From contig JAGGWM010000173.1 of assembly GCA_021157445.1 (NCBI GenBank), forward strand, positions 1 through 10,024: a DNA stretch of 10,024 bases. The letters are read 5' to 3'. This document shows positions 3,075 through 8,998 of this stretch, piece by piece. A program made the translations under genes and the position numbers. The DNA is from Thermococcus sp. (lineage in GTDB: Archaea; Methanobacteriota_B; Thermococci; Thermococcales; Thermococcaceae). Within the stretch, counting starts at the first letter, position 1; the number at the start of each line of letters is the position of its first letter. The notes beneath the pieces were generated by a model, which was not told where the DNA came from, made no database searches, and saw nothing but the letters and a program-made list of their open reading frames with translations.

Positions 3075-3806
3075 TCAGAACAGATCTTCAAGCTTCACGT
3101 CGATTTTGTCGGGAATAAATGGTAGAACGTGTCTGGTTGTCTTTGGAGAATACACTTCTCCTCTCTTTACAAGCTCCATAACTTCTTCCTTGCTTGGAGC
3201 TTTTCTGATGAAGACATAATCGATTTCGCCCTTGTCCATATCTTCTCTCGCATCTTCCTTGAGTCCATAGTATATCAGCTCTATCTCGCCTTCGACGCTC
3301 ATTTCATCAAGTACTTTGCTGACCTTCTTTTGTTCTTCAAGTGCCCCTGGGATGACAAAGCTTTTCTCTTTGCCAATGAGGGCAAAGGCTACCTCCCCTC
3401 TTTCGGCTTTCTCTTCAGCCTCTTCGTCCTCTACTACTTCCAAACCCTCTGTCTTTAGTCTTTCCAGAACCTTGTTTAGTTCTCCTTTAAAAGCTGGATA
3501 CCATGTGTAAACTTTAACATCATCGCTGAAATAGTCGAGAATTACCGAGGGTGCCTTCTTTGCCCCAAGCTTCTCCAAGCCCGCCCATCTGTGGTGACCG
3601 TCAACGATGAGGTACATATCCTCACCGGGAACTTTTGCCAAAAGCATCGGCTTCCAGAAAACACCGGAGCCTGTTACACTTTCAATAAATGCTTCAAGCT
3701 CTTTTTGGACGAGCTGCTCGTGAGGCTTCATCTTTTCAAGCTCAATAAAAACATATTCAACTTTCTTTATCGGTATGTTGTATTTTGGGACTTTCTCAAC
3801 ACCCAT
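3075..3806 (-). CDS. serK: ADP-dependent free L-serine kinase, ParB/sulfiredoxin fold
   Basis: A 243-residue ParB-domain protein that matches SerK of Thermococcus kodakarensis (TK0378 from memory). That enzyme phosphorylates free L-serine with ADP to give O-phosphoserine and AMP, feeding cysteine synthesis and serine use. The hallmark ParB-type motif DGHHR is at residues 69-73 and Glu30 follows KPH. Both positions coincide with the residues I recall as catalytic or metal-binding in the T. kodakarensis enzyme (Glu30, Asp69), which also confirms the start. ATG 3806 is chosen because the ideal ribosome site AGGAGGTATGAT lies directly before it; an in-frame ATG at 3845 has none and lies near the transcription start. 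There is no DNA-partition context (no parA, no parS-like repeats), so older 'ParB' labels would mislead. An acidic, Glu-rich stretch lies at about residues 122-135. It stands alone with its own promoter and terminator, divergent from psmB. Confidence 0.9.
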   Translation of the reverse strand: MGVEKVPKYNIPIKKVEYVFIELEKMKPHEQLVQKELEAFIESVTGSGVFWKPMLLAKVPGEDMYLIVDGHHRWAGLEKLGAKKAPSVILDYFSDDVKVYTWYPAFKGELNKVLERLKTEGLEVVEDEEAEEKAERGEVAFALIGKEKSFVIPGALEEQKKVSKVLDEMSVEGEIELIYYGLKEDAREDMDKGEIDYVFIRKAPSKEEVMELVKRGEVYSPKTTRHVLPFIPDKIDVKLEDLF

Positions 3807-3852
3807 TTTATCATACCTCCTGATGGTTACACTATTGTAAAACATTTCATGG

Positions 3853-3895: not shown

Positions 3896-3917
3896 ACTCA
3901 TATTGCTTTGCGAAAAC

Positions 3918-3925
3918 TTTAAATA
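3918..3925 (+). promoter_or_regulatory. TATA box of psmB-FttA operon
   Basis: TTTAAATA preceded by an A-rich BRE-like stretch (CGAAAAC). The expected transcription start is near base 3948. Any psmB start codon must lie beyond that, which rules out the upstream in-frame TTG at 3903. Confidence 0.65.
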
Positions 3926-3992
3926 CTCCCTTAGTCAAACCCCCCTTGTAACATTTGTTTCTATTCTCAGGCAAAACGAATATCCTGAAGGG

Positions 3993-4616
3993 GTGTTGGC
4001 TTTGGACAAAATTAAAGGGACAACAACAGTAGGCATTGTTTGTAAGGATGGGGTAGTATTAGCTGCAGACATGAGGGCTTCACTTGGCAACATGGTTATA
4101 TCCAAGGGAGTCAGCAAAATATTCCAAATAGATGACCATCTAGCTCTAGCAGGAGCCGGGAGTGTAGGCGATATACTGGGTCTTGTAAGACTTTTAAGGG
4201 CAGAGGCAAAGCTTTACAAGGCAAGAGTGGGGAAGGAAATGAGCACAAAGGCTCTGGCAACATTAACTTCCAACATCTTAAGTGGGAGAAGATACTTCCC
4301 ATATTTTGGCTGGTTTTTAGTGGGAGGTTACGATGAAAAGCCAAGTCTTTATTCGATTGATATGAGTGGGGGAATAACTGAAGATAGATATGTTTCTGCA
4401 GGTTCTGGTATGGAGTTTGCTTACTCTGTTTTGGATAATGAATACGACGAAAAGATGAATGTTAAAAAAGGCGTTAAATTGGCCATAAAGGCTATAAACA
4501 CCGCAATAAAAAGGGATGTTTTTACTGGAGATGGTATAATGGTTGTTGTTATTACAAAAGAGGGCTATAGCGAGCTTTCTAAAGAAGAAGTCGAGAAAAT
4601 CATTAAAAAGCTTTGA
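3993..4616 (+). CDS. psmB: Archaeal 20S proteasome beta subunit (self-processing protease)
   Basis: The beta subunit of the cytosolic 20S proteasome, an N-terminal nucleophile hydrolase. Autocleavage at Gly|Thr in [10 protein letters not shown] (Thr1 at bases 4020-4022) exposes the catalytic Thr. Asp17 (AADMRAS) and Lys33 (GVSK), counted from Thr1, are present, as are the conserved [16 protein letters not shown] and RDVFTGDG segments. It should therefore be an active rather than structural subunit. The propeptide is only about 9 residues. GTG 3993 is given as start by analogy with relatives whose propeptide begins with Met-Leu; TTG 4002, six bases after AAGGGGTG, is an equally good choice. 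An upstream TTG at 3903 precedes the TATA box and is rejected. Thermococcales have two beta subunits; which one this is cannot be settled, but linkage to aCPSF1 fits the beta gene at that locus in Pyrococcus. The gap to the next gene is 17 bases. Confidence 0.93.
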
Positions 4617-4633
4617 TTCTAGGGGTGGTCGGT

Positions 4634-6580
4634 GTGATAAAAAGAGAAACAAACGTTGATGAAGTTCTAAAAGAAATTAGAGAGATTATTAACCAGATGG
4701 TGCCTAGAGAGACCAAGATAACTGAAATTGAATTTGAAGGGCCGGAGCTTGTTATTTATGTGAAAAATCCCGAAGTTGTAATGCAGGATGGGGATCTCAT
4801 AAAAAACCTTGCAAAGGTTCTCAAAAAGAGAATTAGTGTGAGACCTGATCCAGACGTTCTTCTCCCTCCCGAAAAAGCTGAGGAGTTGATTAAGCAAATA
4901 GTCCCGCCAGAAGCGGAAATAACGAATATAAGCTTTGATCCTTCCGTTGGTGAGGTAATAATCGAAGCTAAAAAGCCAGGACTTGTAATTGGAAAAAACG
5001 GAGAAACACTTAGAGAGATAACCCAGAAAGTTTACTGGGCACCGAAAGTTGTTAGAACTCCTCCCCTGCAGTCCCAGACCATATATTCCATTAGGGGTAT
5101 TCTGCAGTCTGAGAGCAAGGACAGAAGGAAATTCTTAAGGCAGATTGGAAGAAACATCTATAGGAAGCCGGAGCTTAAGAGTGATTGGATAAGAATAACA
5201 GGACTTGGAGGATTTAGGGAAGTCGGAAGGAGCGCTCTTCTACTCCAAACAAATGAGAGTTTCGTACTGGTTGATTTTGGTGTAAACGTTGCGGCATTAA
5301 ACGACCCTAAGAAGGGGTTCCCGCACTTTGATGCTCCGGAGTTTACCTATGTCCTTAAAGAAGGACTTTTGGATGCAATAATAATTACCCACGCACACCT
5401 TGACCACTCTGGTTTGCTGCCTTATCTCTTCAGATACAACCTATTTGACGGACCTATTTACGCAACTCCGCCTACTAGGGATTTAATGGTTCTCCTTCAG
5501 AAGGACTTCATTGAAATACAGCAGAGCAACGGTATTGATCCGCTTTATAGAATGAGGGATATAAAAGAAGTTGTCAAGCACACAATAACCCTTGACTACG
5601 GGGAGGTTAGGGATATCTCGCCAGATTTGAGACTTACTCTTCATAACGCAGGCCACATTCTCGGGTCCTCAATAGTTCATCTTCACGTTGGAAACGGCCT
5701 CCACAACATAGCAGTTACCGGAGACTTCAAGTTCATTCCAACAAGACTCTTTGAACCAGCAAATGCAAAGTTCCCAAGACTTGAGACTCTGATAATGGAG
5801 TCAACCTATGGAGGGAGTAGAGATTATCAAATGCCAAGAGAAGAAGCTGAAAAGCGGCTTATTGAGGTTATCCTCCATACAATCAAGCGTAAGGGGAAAG
5901 TTCTTATCCCTGCAATGGCCGTTGGAAGAGCTCAAGAAATAATGATAGCCCTTGAAGATTATGCAAGGGTAGGGGGCCTGGATGTTCCAATATACCTAGA
6001 CGGTATGATATGGGAGGCAACGGCAATTCATACAGCCTATCCTGAGTACTTGAGCAGAAACCTGAGAAACCAAATATTCCATGAAGGCTACAATCCGTTC
6101 TTAAATGAGATATTCAAACCGGTCGCAAATGCAAATGAGAGGAAAGATATAATAGAAAGTGAAGAGCCTGCAATAATTATAGCCTCCTCTGGCATGTTAG
6201 TAGGCGGACCAAGTGTGGAGTACTTCAAGCACCTTGCCCCAGACCCGAGGAATTCGCTAATATTCGTAAGCTACCAGGCAGAGGGGACTTTGGGCAGGCA
6301 GGTTCAAAGAGGCTTAAGGGAGATACCCACGATAGGTGAAGGCGGAAAGACAGAGGTTATTCAAGTAAACATGGAAATCCACACGATAGATGGATTTTCA
6401 GGCCACGCTGATAGAAGGGAGCTAATGAGCTATGTTGCAAGGGTAAAGCCGAGACCGGAAAGAGTAATAACAGTTCACGGAGAGCCCCAGAAATGCCTTG
6501 ACCTTGCTTCGAGCATCCACAAGAAGTTTGGTCTTTCCACAAGGGCTCCCAATAACCTCGACGCCATCAGGCTAAAGTGA
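4634..6580 (+). CDS. fttA: aCPSF1/FttA, KH-beta-CASP transcription termination ribonuclease
   Basis: A 648-residue archaeal CPSF73 homologue that cleaves nascent RNA and terminates transcription. Order of parts: N-terminal KH-like region with GKNG at about 120-123; metallo-beta-lactamase domain with HAHLDH (His253, His255, Asp257, His258), NAGH (His341) and GDF (Asp364); beta-CASP insert with ESTYGG, IIASSGMLVGGP and the closing motifs GFSGHAD (His591) and VHGE (His615). All zinc ligands seem intact, so it should be an active endo/exonuclease. The length agrees with Pyrococcus orthologues of about 650 residues. GTG 4634 is taken as start because AGGGGTGGT lies at 4621-4629; an in-frame TTG at 4613 overlaps the psmB stop and lacks a ribosome site. 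It shares the psmB transcript, a linkage I recall in other Thermococcales. It acts on chromatin-bound RNA polymerase with the U-rich terminators seen here. Confidence 0.95.
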   Translation: MIKRETNVDEVLKEIREIINQMVPRETKITEIEFEGPELVIYVKNPEVVMQDGDLIKNLAKVLKKRISVRPDPDVLLPPEKAEELIKQIVPPEAEITNISFDPSVGEVIIEAKKPGLVIGKNGETLREITQKVYWAPKVVRTPPLQSQTIYSIRGILQSESKDRRKFLRQIGRNIYRKPELKSDWIRITGLGGFREVGRSALLLQTNESFVLVDFGVNVAALNDPKKGFPHFDAPEFTYVLKEGLLDAIIITHAHLDHSGLLPYLFRYNLFDGPIYATPPTRDLMVLLQKDFIEIQQSNGIDPLYRMRDIKEVVKHTITLDYGEVRDISPDLRLTLHNAGHILGSSIVHLHVGNGLHNIAVTGDFKFIPTRLFEPANAKFPRLETLIMESTYGGSRDYQMPREEAEKRLIEVILHTIKRKGKVLIPAMAVGRAQEIMIALEDYARVGGLDVPIYLDGMIWEATAIHTAYPEYLSRNLRNQIFHEGYNPFLNEIFKPVANANERKDIIESEEPAIIIASSGMLVGGPSVEYFKHLAPDPRNSLIFVSYQAEGTLGRQVQRGLREIPTIGEGGKTEVIQVNMEIHTIDGFSGHADRRELMSYVARVKPRPERVITVHGEPQKCLDLASSIHKKFGLSTRAPNNLDAIRLK

Positions 6581-6607: not shown

Positions 6608-7939
6608 ATGATAAAGTGTCTCAAATGCGGAAAGGAGTACAGGCAGATCGTTCCACCCCGATGCTCATGCGGGGCTTTCCTTGAAGTGTCATATGATTAT
6701 TCCAGGGTAGATATTGGAAAATGGAAAAATAGGGAAAGAGGCGTATGGAGGTACAAGGAACTCCTCCCTGATGTGGCCAAAATAATTTCATTAAAGGAAG
6801 GTGGAACGCCTTTAGTTAAAGCAAAAATCGGTGAAGAGCTTGGAATAAATGTTTTTATTAAAGATGAAACGAGGAACCCAACAGGTTCATTTAGGGATCG
6901 GCTTGCTACAGTGGGAGTTTCTTACGGTTTACCCTATGCAGATAATGGTTTTATAGTTGCCAGTGATGGTAACGCAGCAGCGTCTTTGGCCGCTTACGCT
7001 GCTAGAGCCAATAAAGAAGCCTTTGTTGTTGTTCCTAAAAAAGTTGATAAAGGAAAGCTTATTCAGATGATAGCTTTTGGGGCTAAGATAATTCGCTATG
7101 GCGAGAGCGTGGATGAGTGCATAGAATATGCAAGAGAGCTTTCCCGGTTAAACGGTCTCTACGACATAACCCCCGAAAACAACATAATCGGACTTGAAGG
7201 GCAGAAAACCCTTGCGTTTGAGCTCTGGGAAGAAATAAACCCAACCCATGTTATTGTCCCAACTGGGAGTGGAAGCAATATCTACAGCATTTACAAGGGA
7301 TTTAGAGAGCTTTTGGAAATCGGGGTTGTTGAGGAAATCCCCAAGCTAATTGCTGTGCAGACTGAAAATTGCTCTCCAATAGTGGCCGAGATATTGGGAA
7401 TAGAAGGCAAGAGAGAGTTCACTAAAGCATTGGGGCTGTACGTTAAAGACCCGGTAAATAAAGAACTTGCAATAAGGGCCGTTAGGGAAAGCGGTGGGAC
7501 TGCTGTTGCTGTGAGTGAGGATGAGCTCGATTTTGGAGAGAGAGCTCTTGCCAAGGAAGGCGTCTTTGCTGAGTATTCTTCGGCTGTTGTTATTCCAGCT
7601 TTGGTAAAGCTCCACGAAAATGGGTATTTTGAGAAGGGAGACAGGGTGGCTCTGGTGGTCACGGGCTCGGGATTAAAAAGCTACTATGTGGAGGAAAGGG
7701 AGCGCTTTTCAATTGGTGGAACAAAGCTCGAAATACTAAAGCTCTTACGAGAAAAGCCCATGTATGGTTACGAGATCTGGGAAAATCTTGAAAAGCCAAT
7801 GAAATATCAAGCGGTTTATCAGCATATAAAGGAACTTGAGGCTCTCGGGTTGATAGAGGAAGCATACAAAAGAGGAAGAAGGGTTTATTATAAGCTCACT
7901 GAAAAAGGGGAACGATTGCTCGAGAACTTCGAGGACTGA
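6608..7939 (+). CDS. Threonine synthase-like fold-type II protein with PLP lysine replaced, fused to PadR-type winged helix
   Basis: 443 residues in three parts. Residues 4-21 hold a four-cysteine zinc ribbon (CLKC...CSC). Residues about 60-355 have the threonine synthase fold (GGTPLV, DETRNPTGSF, DGNAAASLAAYAARA, VPTGSGSNI). Residues about 367-443 match a PadR-like winged helix (PMYGYEIWENL, VYQHIKELEALGLIEE, and a wing before YYKLTEKGERLL). The PLP-binding Lys of NPTGSFKDR is Arg here (residue 96, codon AGG at 6893-6895), the usual SSGN loop is SDGN, and the usual G-x-GGN phosphate loop is GSGSN. Threonine synthesis is therefore unlikely. I infer a transcription regulator whose enzyme-like domain senses an amino acid, phospho-amino acid or free PLP. 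GTG 6602 and ATG 6605 are alternative starts; ATG 6608 best fits GGTGGG spacing. A plain 'thrC' label would be misleading. It follows fttA by 27 bases and precedes a membrane protein and rpiA. Confidence 0.85.
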   Translation: MIKCLKCGKEYRQIVPPRCSCGAFLEVSYDYSRVDIGKWKNRERGVWRYKELLPDVAKIISLKEGGTPLVKAKIGEELGINVFIKDETRNPTGSFRDRLATVGVSYGLPYADNGFIVASDGNAAASLAAYAARANKEAFVVVPKKVDKGKLIQMIAFGAKIIRYGESVDECIEYARELSRLNGLYDITPENNIIGLEGQKTLAFELWEEINPTHVIVPTGSGSNIYSIYKGFRELLEIGVVEEIPKLIAVQTENCSPIVAEILGIEGKREFTKALGLYVKDPVNKELAIRAVRESGGTAVAVSEDELDFGERALAKEGVFAEYSSAVVIPALVKLHENGYFEKGDRVALVVTGSGLKSYYVEERERFSIGGTKLEILKLLREKPMYGYEIWENLEKPMKYQAVYQHIKELEALGLIEEAYKRGRRVYYKLTEKGERLLENFED

Positions 7940-7987: not shown

Positions 7988-8311
7988 GTGAATGTTGAAA
8001 ACAAGATGTCGCTCATATTTTACGCAATTGGAGCAATAGCGGGGATAGTGAGTGGAGTACTATCAACTCAAGCTCAAATGGGCTACGTTGCAGGCTTACT
8101 GATTTATCTGCTCTCCCCAAAAGTAGTTATCGCTCTCGTTAAAGACCTTCCAGATGAGCTGAGGGATGAGAAAGTTCTACTCAAAAAAGGGTTCTGGGGA
8201 TTTTTCTTGTTCTGGCTGTACTTCACGATCTTTAGCTATAATCTCATCTTGCAGCCCGAGCCAAAGTTTTATTCAAACCAATCTCTCCTTTATAACATAA
8301 CGAAGGGATGA
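7988..8311 (+). CDS. Small membrane protein of unknown function, three predicted helices
   Basis: A 107-residue protein I do not recognise. Hydrophobic stretches at about residues 8-25 (LIFYAIGAIAGIVSGVLS), 31-52 and 69-88 (FWGFFLFWLYFTIF) suggest three membrane helices. A charged loop (DLPDELRDEKVLLKK) lies between helices two and three, and a polar tail follows. There is no signal peptide cleavage site, cysteine pair or catalytic motif. The GTG start follows AGGTGAT by five bases, which makes translation convincing. Its stop lies three bases before the rpiA start, so both are on one transcript and their expression is coupled, though that does not prove joint function. Small conserved hypothetical membrane proteins of this size are common in Thermococcales. 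The gene looks intact, with composition like its neighbours. Confidence 0.75.
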   Translation: MNVENKMSLIFYAIGAIAGIVSGVLSTQAQMGYVAGLLIYLLSPKVVIALVKDLPDELRDEKVLLKKGFWGFFLFWLYFTIFSYNLILQPEPKFYSNQSLLYNITKG

Positions 8312-8314
8312 TAG

Positions 8315-8998
8315 ATGGAGGAATTAAAAAGAATGGTCGCCAAGGAGGCTTTAAAGTACATTGACGATGACATGATAATTGGGTTAGGCACTGGTTCAAC
8401 AACCGCTCACTTCATTCAAATGCTGGGAAAAAAGCTGATGACAGGGGAACTTGAGGATGTTTATGGTATTCCTACCTCACACCAATCACGCCTTTTAGCC
8501 CTTGAGAGTGGAATTCCGGTTGTGAGCCTTGATGAAGTTGATGCAATTGACCTCGCAATCGATGGTGCGGATGAAGTTGATCCCCATCTAAATCTCATTA
8601 AGGGCAGAGGTGCCGCATTAACAATGGAGAAGATCATCGAGTATAGGGCTGGAGCATTTATAGTGCTTGTAGACGAAAGCAAACTTGTGGAGTACCTTGG
8701 CCAGAAAATGCCTGTTCCTATAGAGGTAATCCCTGCCGCTTGGAGAGCAATAAAAGACGAGCTTGAAGTTTTCAACGCAACGGCTGAGCTTAGAATGGGT
8801 GTTAAAAAAGATGGACCTGTGATAACTGATAACGGAAACTTTATCCTCGATGCAAAATTTGAAAGAATCGAAGACCCGCTTGACATGGAAATTGAGCTAA
8901 ATAACATCCCGGGAGTTGTCGAAAACGGCATCTTTGCAGATATAGCGGATATTGTTCTAGTAGGAACAAAAGAGGGCGTTAAAAAGTTAGAGCGTTAG
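8315..8998 (+). CDS. rpiA: Ribose-5-phosphate isomerase A
   Basis: A 227-residue RpiA, near the usual length for the archaeal enzyme (about 229 in Pyrococcus horikoshii from memory). It interconverts ribose 5-phosphate and ribulose 5-phosphate in the cytosol, supplying nucleotide, aromatic and PLP synthesis. In Thermococcales ribulose 5-phosphate comes from the reversed ribulose monophosphate pathway. Motifs seen are the phosphate-binding GLGTGSTT (about residues 23-30), DGADEVD with the two catalytic aspartates, KGRGAALT with the catalytic Lys, and the general base Glu in TMEKIIEY. A second phosphate-contact region occurs in VITDNGNFILD. ATG 8315 is preceded by GGGATGAT three to four bases upstream, overlapping the end of the membrane protein gene. 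Its end converges with the cysteine synthase-type gene, 29 bases apart. Confidence 0.95.
   Translation: MEELKRMVAKEALKYIDDDMIIGLGTGSTTAHFIQMLGKKLMTGELEDVYGIPTSHQSRLLALESGIPVVSLDEVDAIDLAIDGADEVDPHLNLIKGRGAALTMEKIIEYRAGAFIVLVDESKLVEYLGQKMPVPIEVIPAAWRAIKDELEVFNATAELRMGVKKDGPVITDNGNFILDAKFERIEDPLDMEIELNNIPGVVENGIFADIADIVLVGTKEGVKKLER

Follow-up and report, generated by a model that had tools for sequence, protein, structure and literature searches.

In the MocR/GabR/PdxR regulators, an enzyme-derived PLP-fold domain and a winged helix are joined in one polypeptide, and MocR regulators bind PLP covalently. As described for MocR regulators, an N-terminal GntR-kind winged helix is combined with a fold-type I aminotransferase-like domain, and one paper reports MocR as "not present in Archaea" (PMC5320631). 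For fold-type II, the nearest case of a PLP enzyme governing a transcription factor is the CysK-CymR pair. These are two separate proteins, and CysK is an active enzyme. A published table entry on this fold-type II PLP enzyme of Bacillus subtilis speaks of "control of CymR activity" (PMC6522883).

Here we describe a protein encoded in the window, the whole 10,024-nucleotide stretch of Thermococcus sp. DNA that was analysed. Relative to MocR, its PLP-type fold is fold-type II, its winged helix is C-terminal and of PadR kind, and the GntR family is not among the 21 Pfam families that match it at E <= 1. The PALP plus C-terminal PadR architecture thus follows a MocR-like logic with another fold and the opposite domain order, as the first-pass annotation had proposed; consistent with its remark that it knew of no characterised example, a full-text literature search in which few subscription journals were covered showed no paper on the fusion. 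With threonine synthase (ThrC) the protein has its fold in common, and the zinc ribbon is shared with archaeal paralogues, but the catalytic Lys and the substrate-phosphate Arg are missing and a winged-helix tail is present. The winged helix is like that of PadR-family regulators (PF03551) by profile and by fold, whereas here it forms the tail of a large putative sensor. We propose, with a probability of about 0.7, that this is a metabolite-sensing, DNA-binding one-component regulator of Archaea, a pseudoenzyme derived from an old PLP enzyme, this function being putative. The features of the gene and its product are as follows, with contact numbering for threonine synthase taken from an alignment to the Thermus thermophilus enzyme.

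6608..7939, + strand: CDS of 443 aa, starting at ATG 6608 (alternative in-frame starts GTG 6602 and ATG 6605)
6617..6670, + strand: N-terminal zinc ribbon CxxC...CxC, Cys 4, 7, 19 and 21
6785..7666, + strand: PALP / threonine-synthase fold-type II domain, aa 60-353
6872..6874, + strand: Arg89 beside the NPT motif
6893..6895, + strand: Arg96 (AGG), where T. thermophilus threonine synthase has Schiff-base Lys61
6962..6976, + strand: SDGN-A loop (SDGN aa 119-122), with Thr85->Asp120 and Thr88->Ala123, Asn122 retained
7190..7192, + strand: Gly195 in place of Arg160, presumed to contact the substrate phosphate
7259..7279, + strand: cofactor-phosphate loop PTGSGSN, aa 218-224 (PVGNAGN in threonine synthase)
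7661..7663, + strand: Thr352, retained by alignment to threonine synthase, presumably the pyridine-N contact of PLP
7673..7714, + strand: linker, aa 356-369, of low confidence in structure prediction
7733..7924, + strand: PadR-type winged helix, aa 376-439, from Pfam and fold comparison
7805..7843, + strand: predicted recognition helix, aa 400-412 (YQAVYQHIKELEA)

The reading frame, its coordinates and the AGG codon at 6893-6895 are exactly those given in the first-pass annotation, and its claims of a kept zinc ribbon and a lost Schiff-base Lys likewise stand: all four cysteines are present, and Arg96 occupies the aligned position in an otherwise recognisable threonine-synthase fold domain (PALP Pfam match at aa 60-353, E 1.3e-69). 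Its account of altered loops needs revision. SDGN and PTGSGSN are indeed present, but the reference loops in threonine synthases are STGN and GNAGN rather than SSGN and GGN, so the telling changes are Thr85 to Asp or Asn and the loss of Arg160, the latter previously overlooked. We take Arg160, Thr88 and Asn188 of threonine synthase to be substrate-phosphate residues, and the Asn of SxGN (PLP-O3') and the Thr of TGxGLK to be PLP contacts. The first three correspond to Gly195, Ala123 and Ser221 in the window protein; the two PLP contacts are retained. Across 348 fused proteins compared (see below), Arg160 is Arg in none and Thr85 is Thr in none, against 19 of 20 and 20 of 20 paralogues, respectively. 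Thr88 (1/348) and Asn188 (4/348) are also largely lost, but only 7 of the 20 paralogues keep them, which makes Arg160 the discriminating residue. Asn122, by comparison, is present in 347 of the 348 (with one gap) and Thr352 in 346, and Arg89 characterises the fused proteins (322/348 vs 1/20 paralogues). These differences support the view that, judged by sequence, the protein has ceased to be a threonine synthase. The window protein falls narrowly below the TIGR00260 (thrC) cut-off (164.3 vs 167.1 bits), a score that says little because the fused relatives P0079, P0106 and P0112 exceed that cut-off and the window protein passes the cut-off of its own model, NF004170. A substitute lysine was sought among positions conserved in 90% of the 224 Arg-type proteins, namely 85, 150, 200, 230, 357 and 373, and none qualifies; Lys373 lies in the tail and the other five are also conserved in paralogues, so that no conserved PALP-domain lysine of the Arg type appears to replace the Schiff-base Lys.

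The assignment of the C-terminal domain to PadR is upheld by profile, PF03551 matching aa 376-439 with 41.9 bits against a cut-off of 27 (E 1e-10), and by fold, in which PadR is the nearest relative: the last 82 residues folded alone give the PadR structure 5dym as best Foldseek match (E 1.5e-5, TM 0.80). The top rows are 5dym and 6abt, followed by MarR- and ArsR-type rows whose E-values are less than 50-fold higher. That MarR- and ArsR-type folds match almost equally well counts against the regulator reading. The motif AxYQH in the recognition helix is common to Arg and Lys types among the 348 listed proteins. After the wing, the predicted monomer has a single 11-residue helix; PadR proteins have a longer C-terminal dimerisation part than one short helix.

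The architecture is already modelled by NCBIfam as NF004170/PRK05638, which covers the full length (804 bits vs a cut-off of 421) and whose name, threonine synthase, is annotation only. A match exceeds this cut-off in 69 of 115 genomes of the phylum; among fused relatives, P0079 scores above it, whereas the distant P0112 and P0106 do not reach it. Three protein searches scored about 8000 candidates each, and the best 120 of the 4232, 4007 and 2338 that passed, together with the window protein, make up the 348 proteins compared, which are listed best matches and not a census. At the Schiff-base position they carry 224 Arg, 122 Lys, one Met (P0343, the single such relative listed) and one gap. 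The tail is found in 346 of the 348, the exceptions (P0065 and P0066) being short records, and a Pfam PadR match is precomputed for all but these two and P0041, which has other HTH families. All named listed relatives are archaeal, with Thermococcus, Pyrococcus, Palaeococcus, "Methanomicrobia archaeon", Bathyarchaeota, Nitrososphaerota, Thermoproteota, Odinarchaeota, Freyarchaeota, Jordarchaeales and Promethearchaeota among the names. Arg and Lys types are not scattered among these listed relatives: all 116 new proteins listed from the P0112 search are Lys, and 110 of 111 from the P0106 search are Arg, the other being Met. Where Lys-type records are named, which is seldom, the names are Bathyarchaeia, MCG or Thermoproteota; Arg-type Bathyarchaeota also exist. 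A contig search with a single-sequence query recovered 13 Thermococcales-type loci; viral contigs gave pattern matches only, none confirmed as relatives.

Whether the PadR tail always accompanies the Arg had been posed as a check. The tail is not specific to Arg: PadR occurs with Lys in 122 of the 348 listed proteins (a large clade and a Palaeococcus lineage) and is hence no marker of Lys loss. A Lys clade bearing this tail means that the architecture does not depend on a dead site, which counts against the regulator reading. Orthologues with Lys had also been named as a refuting finding, one that would point to sequencing error or strain mutation. Such orthologues do exist in the Palaeococcus lineage and in one large clade, but error is excluded, since of 41 genomes read in the window's class (38 from its order and three from family f2) 40 have Arg at the site and one, G002, has Lys, and since the Arg96 codons across genomes are AGG, AGA, CGA, CGC and CGT.

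We placed the Lys/Arg changes on two phylogenies. Tree 1 comprised 94 fused proteins and an outgroup of 20 paralogues (19 from Thermococcales, one from family f4), with the site masked. The fused family lies on one side of a branch (SH-aLRT 99), a large Lys clade (32 rows, support 100) falls among Arg rows, and Palaeococcus pacificus and its sister P0018, both Lys (93), lie inside Arg-bearing Thermococcales (100); the tree carries a warning of long branches meeting. Tree 2 (69 fused proteins and 11 paralogues, without the Palaeococcus rows) agreed in setting the large Lys clade (27 rows, support 100) amid Arg rows, with several weak forks (5 to 75). AU tests did not reject a single clade of all Arg proteins (p 0.426 when the Palaeococcus pair is included; p 0.479), so one deep loss of Lys is possible. 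For the Palaeococcus lineage, the simplest reading of the tree is that Arg changed to Lys, and this Lys likewise counts against the regulator reading. PLP bound to Lys as a Schiff base, as in MocR, has no counterpart in the window protein; the 122 listed Lys-type relatives could bind it in this way. We tentatively raise, at somewhat less than even odds, the possibility that the family is an archaeal fold-type II counterpart of MocR in which the Lys type can hold PLP covalently and the Arg type cannot, with Lys regained in Palaeococcus and perhaps in the whole Lys clade.

The gene is under purifying selection, with dN/dS against three of the nearest orthologues of 0.032-0.040 for PALP and 0.003-0.017 for PadR; dS is saturated in three more distant pairs. 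It is nevertheless dispensable to some genomes, being absent from 22 of the 74 that are near complete in Thermococcales when the broken copy of G078, a near-complete genome of the same genus whose orthologue is split into two reading frames (L076 6322-7574), is counted as present. None of the 23 aCPSF1 loci read in gene-less genomes shows a remnant behind aCPSF1, and for 22 the sequence covers 1.5 kb downstream. The absences and the broken G078 copy weigh against the regulator reading; selection plus patchy presence would fit an accessory regulator. Whether a separate intact threonine synthase exists had been posed as a check. None was found in the window's assembly (61% complete, 220 contigs), whose other matches are the window's dehydratase and cysteine-synthase-like genes and one winged-helix match on another contig, and the near-complete G012 gave no other match at E <= 1e-10; in relatives, however, Lys-bearing paralogues do occur, and all 20 that were read keep Lys and have no tail. 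The seven paralogues that keep Thr88/Asn188 are of one type; of the six in genomes searched for thrB, five adjoin it and one (G006) does not. Two more threonine-synthase-like paralogue types of Thermococcales (L122, L124 and similar) carry NPTGAFKDR with VPIGAGTHL or NPTWSFKDR with PTSSGG, and neither lies beside the listed thrB places.

The fused gene stands within a conserved row consisting of psmB, aCPSF1, the fused gene, a 107-aa gene and rpiA:

3903..4616, + strand: proteasome beta subunit (psmB; TIGR03634), start of the conserved row
4613..6580, + strand: beta-CASP ribonuclease aCPSF1 (TIGR03675), immediately 5' of the fused gene
7988..8311, + strand: conserved 107-aa protein, downstream of the fused gene
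8315..8998, + strand: ribose-5-phosphate isomerase RpiA

The conserved 107-aa protein between the fused gene and rpiA has no Pfam or NCBIfam match, and its gene follows aCPSF1 in 12 of the 23 loci without the fused gene, within about 90 bases in 11. Comparison covered 21 neighbourhoods (17 with the fused gene called, three from family f2 and one not called). The fused gene follows aCPSF1 in 16 of the 17 Thermococcales neighbourhoods where it is called; Palaeococcus (L078) and the three f2 contigs have other neighbours, with aCPSF1 not adjoining. A row of unrelated housekeeping genes is uninformative as to a target. Between the fused gene and the 107-aa gene, inspection by eye for an operator revealed promoter-like conservation only and no convincing palindrome; neighbourhoods and intergenic conservation pointed to no operator, regulon or ligand, which weighs against the regulator reading, as does the housekeeping setting. 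Serine-related PLP genes abound in the window: a threonine/serine dehydratase lies at 895-1854, an aminotransferase at 1856-2983, and a cysteine-synthase-like gene is truncated by the window end. ADP-dependent L-serine kinase SerK (3075-3845, - strand; NF053625, 401 bits vs a cut-off of 380) points away from psmB in the six neighbourhoods of the same genus but in none of the others compared. Co-occurrence with homoserine dehydrogenase (92/94) and SerK (85/94) is near universal and therefore uninformative; hom itself is preceded by another gene in those loci that were read.

Under the regulator reading, the threonine-synthase fold would be kept as sensor and dimer body, no longer able to bind phosphohomoserine or, lacking the Lys, to form an internal aldimine, and the C-terminal PadR winged helix would bind DNA. 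Because the PLP contacts remain and the substrate-phosphate site is gone, the signal may be PLP plus an amino acid (as a PLP-amino acid aldimine, with no protein Schiff base) or a related small molecule. On ligand binding in the cleft, closure of the small domain would move the paired winged helices; the parent enzymes are dimeric. According to their titles, PDB entries 1d6s and 3x44 are fold-type II proteins mutated from Lys to Ala that carry amino acid adducts, which makes a trapped PLP-amino acid adduct plausible.

Several other explanations draw on the same observations. The protein could be a trigger enzyme that catalyses another reaction under a regulatory winged helix, the Lys type being a normal PLP enzyme and the Arg type Lys-independent; Lys in 122 of the 348 listed proteins, the retained fold and PLP contacts and the Arg-to-Lys change that is the simplest tree reading in Palaeococcus would all suit it, but the Arg type has no substitute lysine and the substrate-phosphate Arg is gone from both types, and we consider it unlikely. 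Quite improbable is a regulator of threonine synthesis that senses phosphohomoserine or threonine. Descent from threonine synthase speaks for it, as does a weak thrB association that is not significant (a match in 22 of 52 near-complete genomes with the fused gene vs 5 of 22 without; Fisher p 0.12), yet 30 of those 52 have no thrB match and Arg160, the presumed contact of the phosphohomoserine phosphate, is lost in all 348 listed proteins; threonine sensing by the window protein is not indicated.

Besides DNA, a winged helix can recognise a protein or RNA, and the position directly after aCPSF1 in 16 of 17 Thermococcales neighbourhoods would suit a co-regulator whose partner is RNA polymerase or aCPSF1 itself. 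Against such a partner stand the Palaeococcus and f2 loci, where aCPSF1 does not adjoin, the 23 gene-less loci with no trace after aCPSF1 and the conserved recognition helix, and we regard this account as very doubtful. A sequencing error or strain-specific decay has next to no probability: although the assembly is fragmentary and the G078 orthologue is split between two frames, the presence of Arg in 40 of 41 genomes through five codons and the low dN/dS refute error as the source of Arg, and selection of this strength argues against decay. The one-component regulator remains our preferred reading.

For the family, this reading means that proteins annotated as threonine synthase, hundreds in number, probably act as regulators, and that the name misleads metabolic reconstructions. 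If true, Archaea derived gene regulation through a PLP-type pocket from a second enzyme fold, and the split into Arg and Lys types would be a natural experiment on what a Schiff base adds to sensing. The regain of Lys, if true, would have brought a pseudoenzyme site back towards PLP chemistry.
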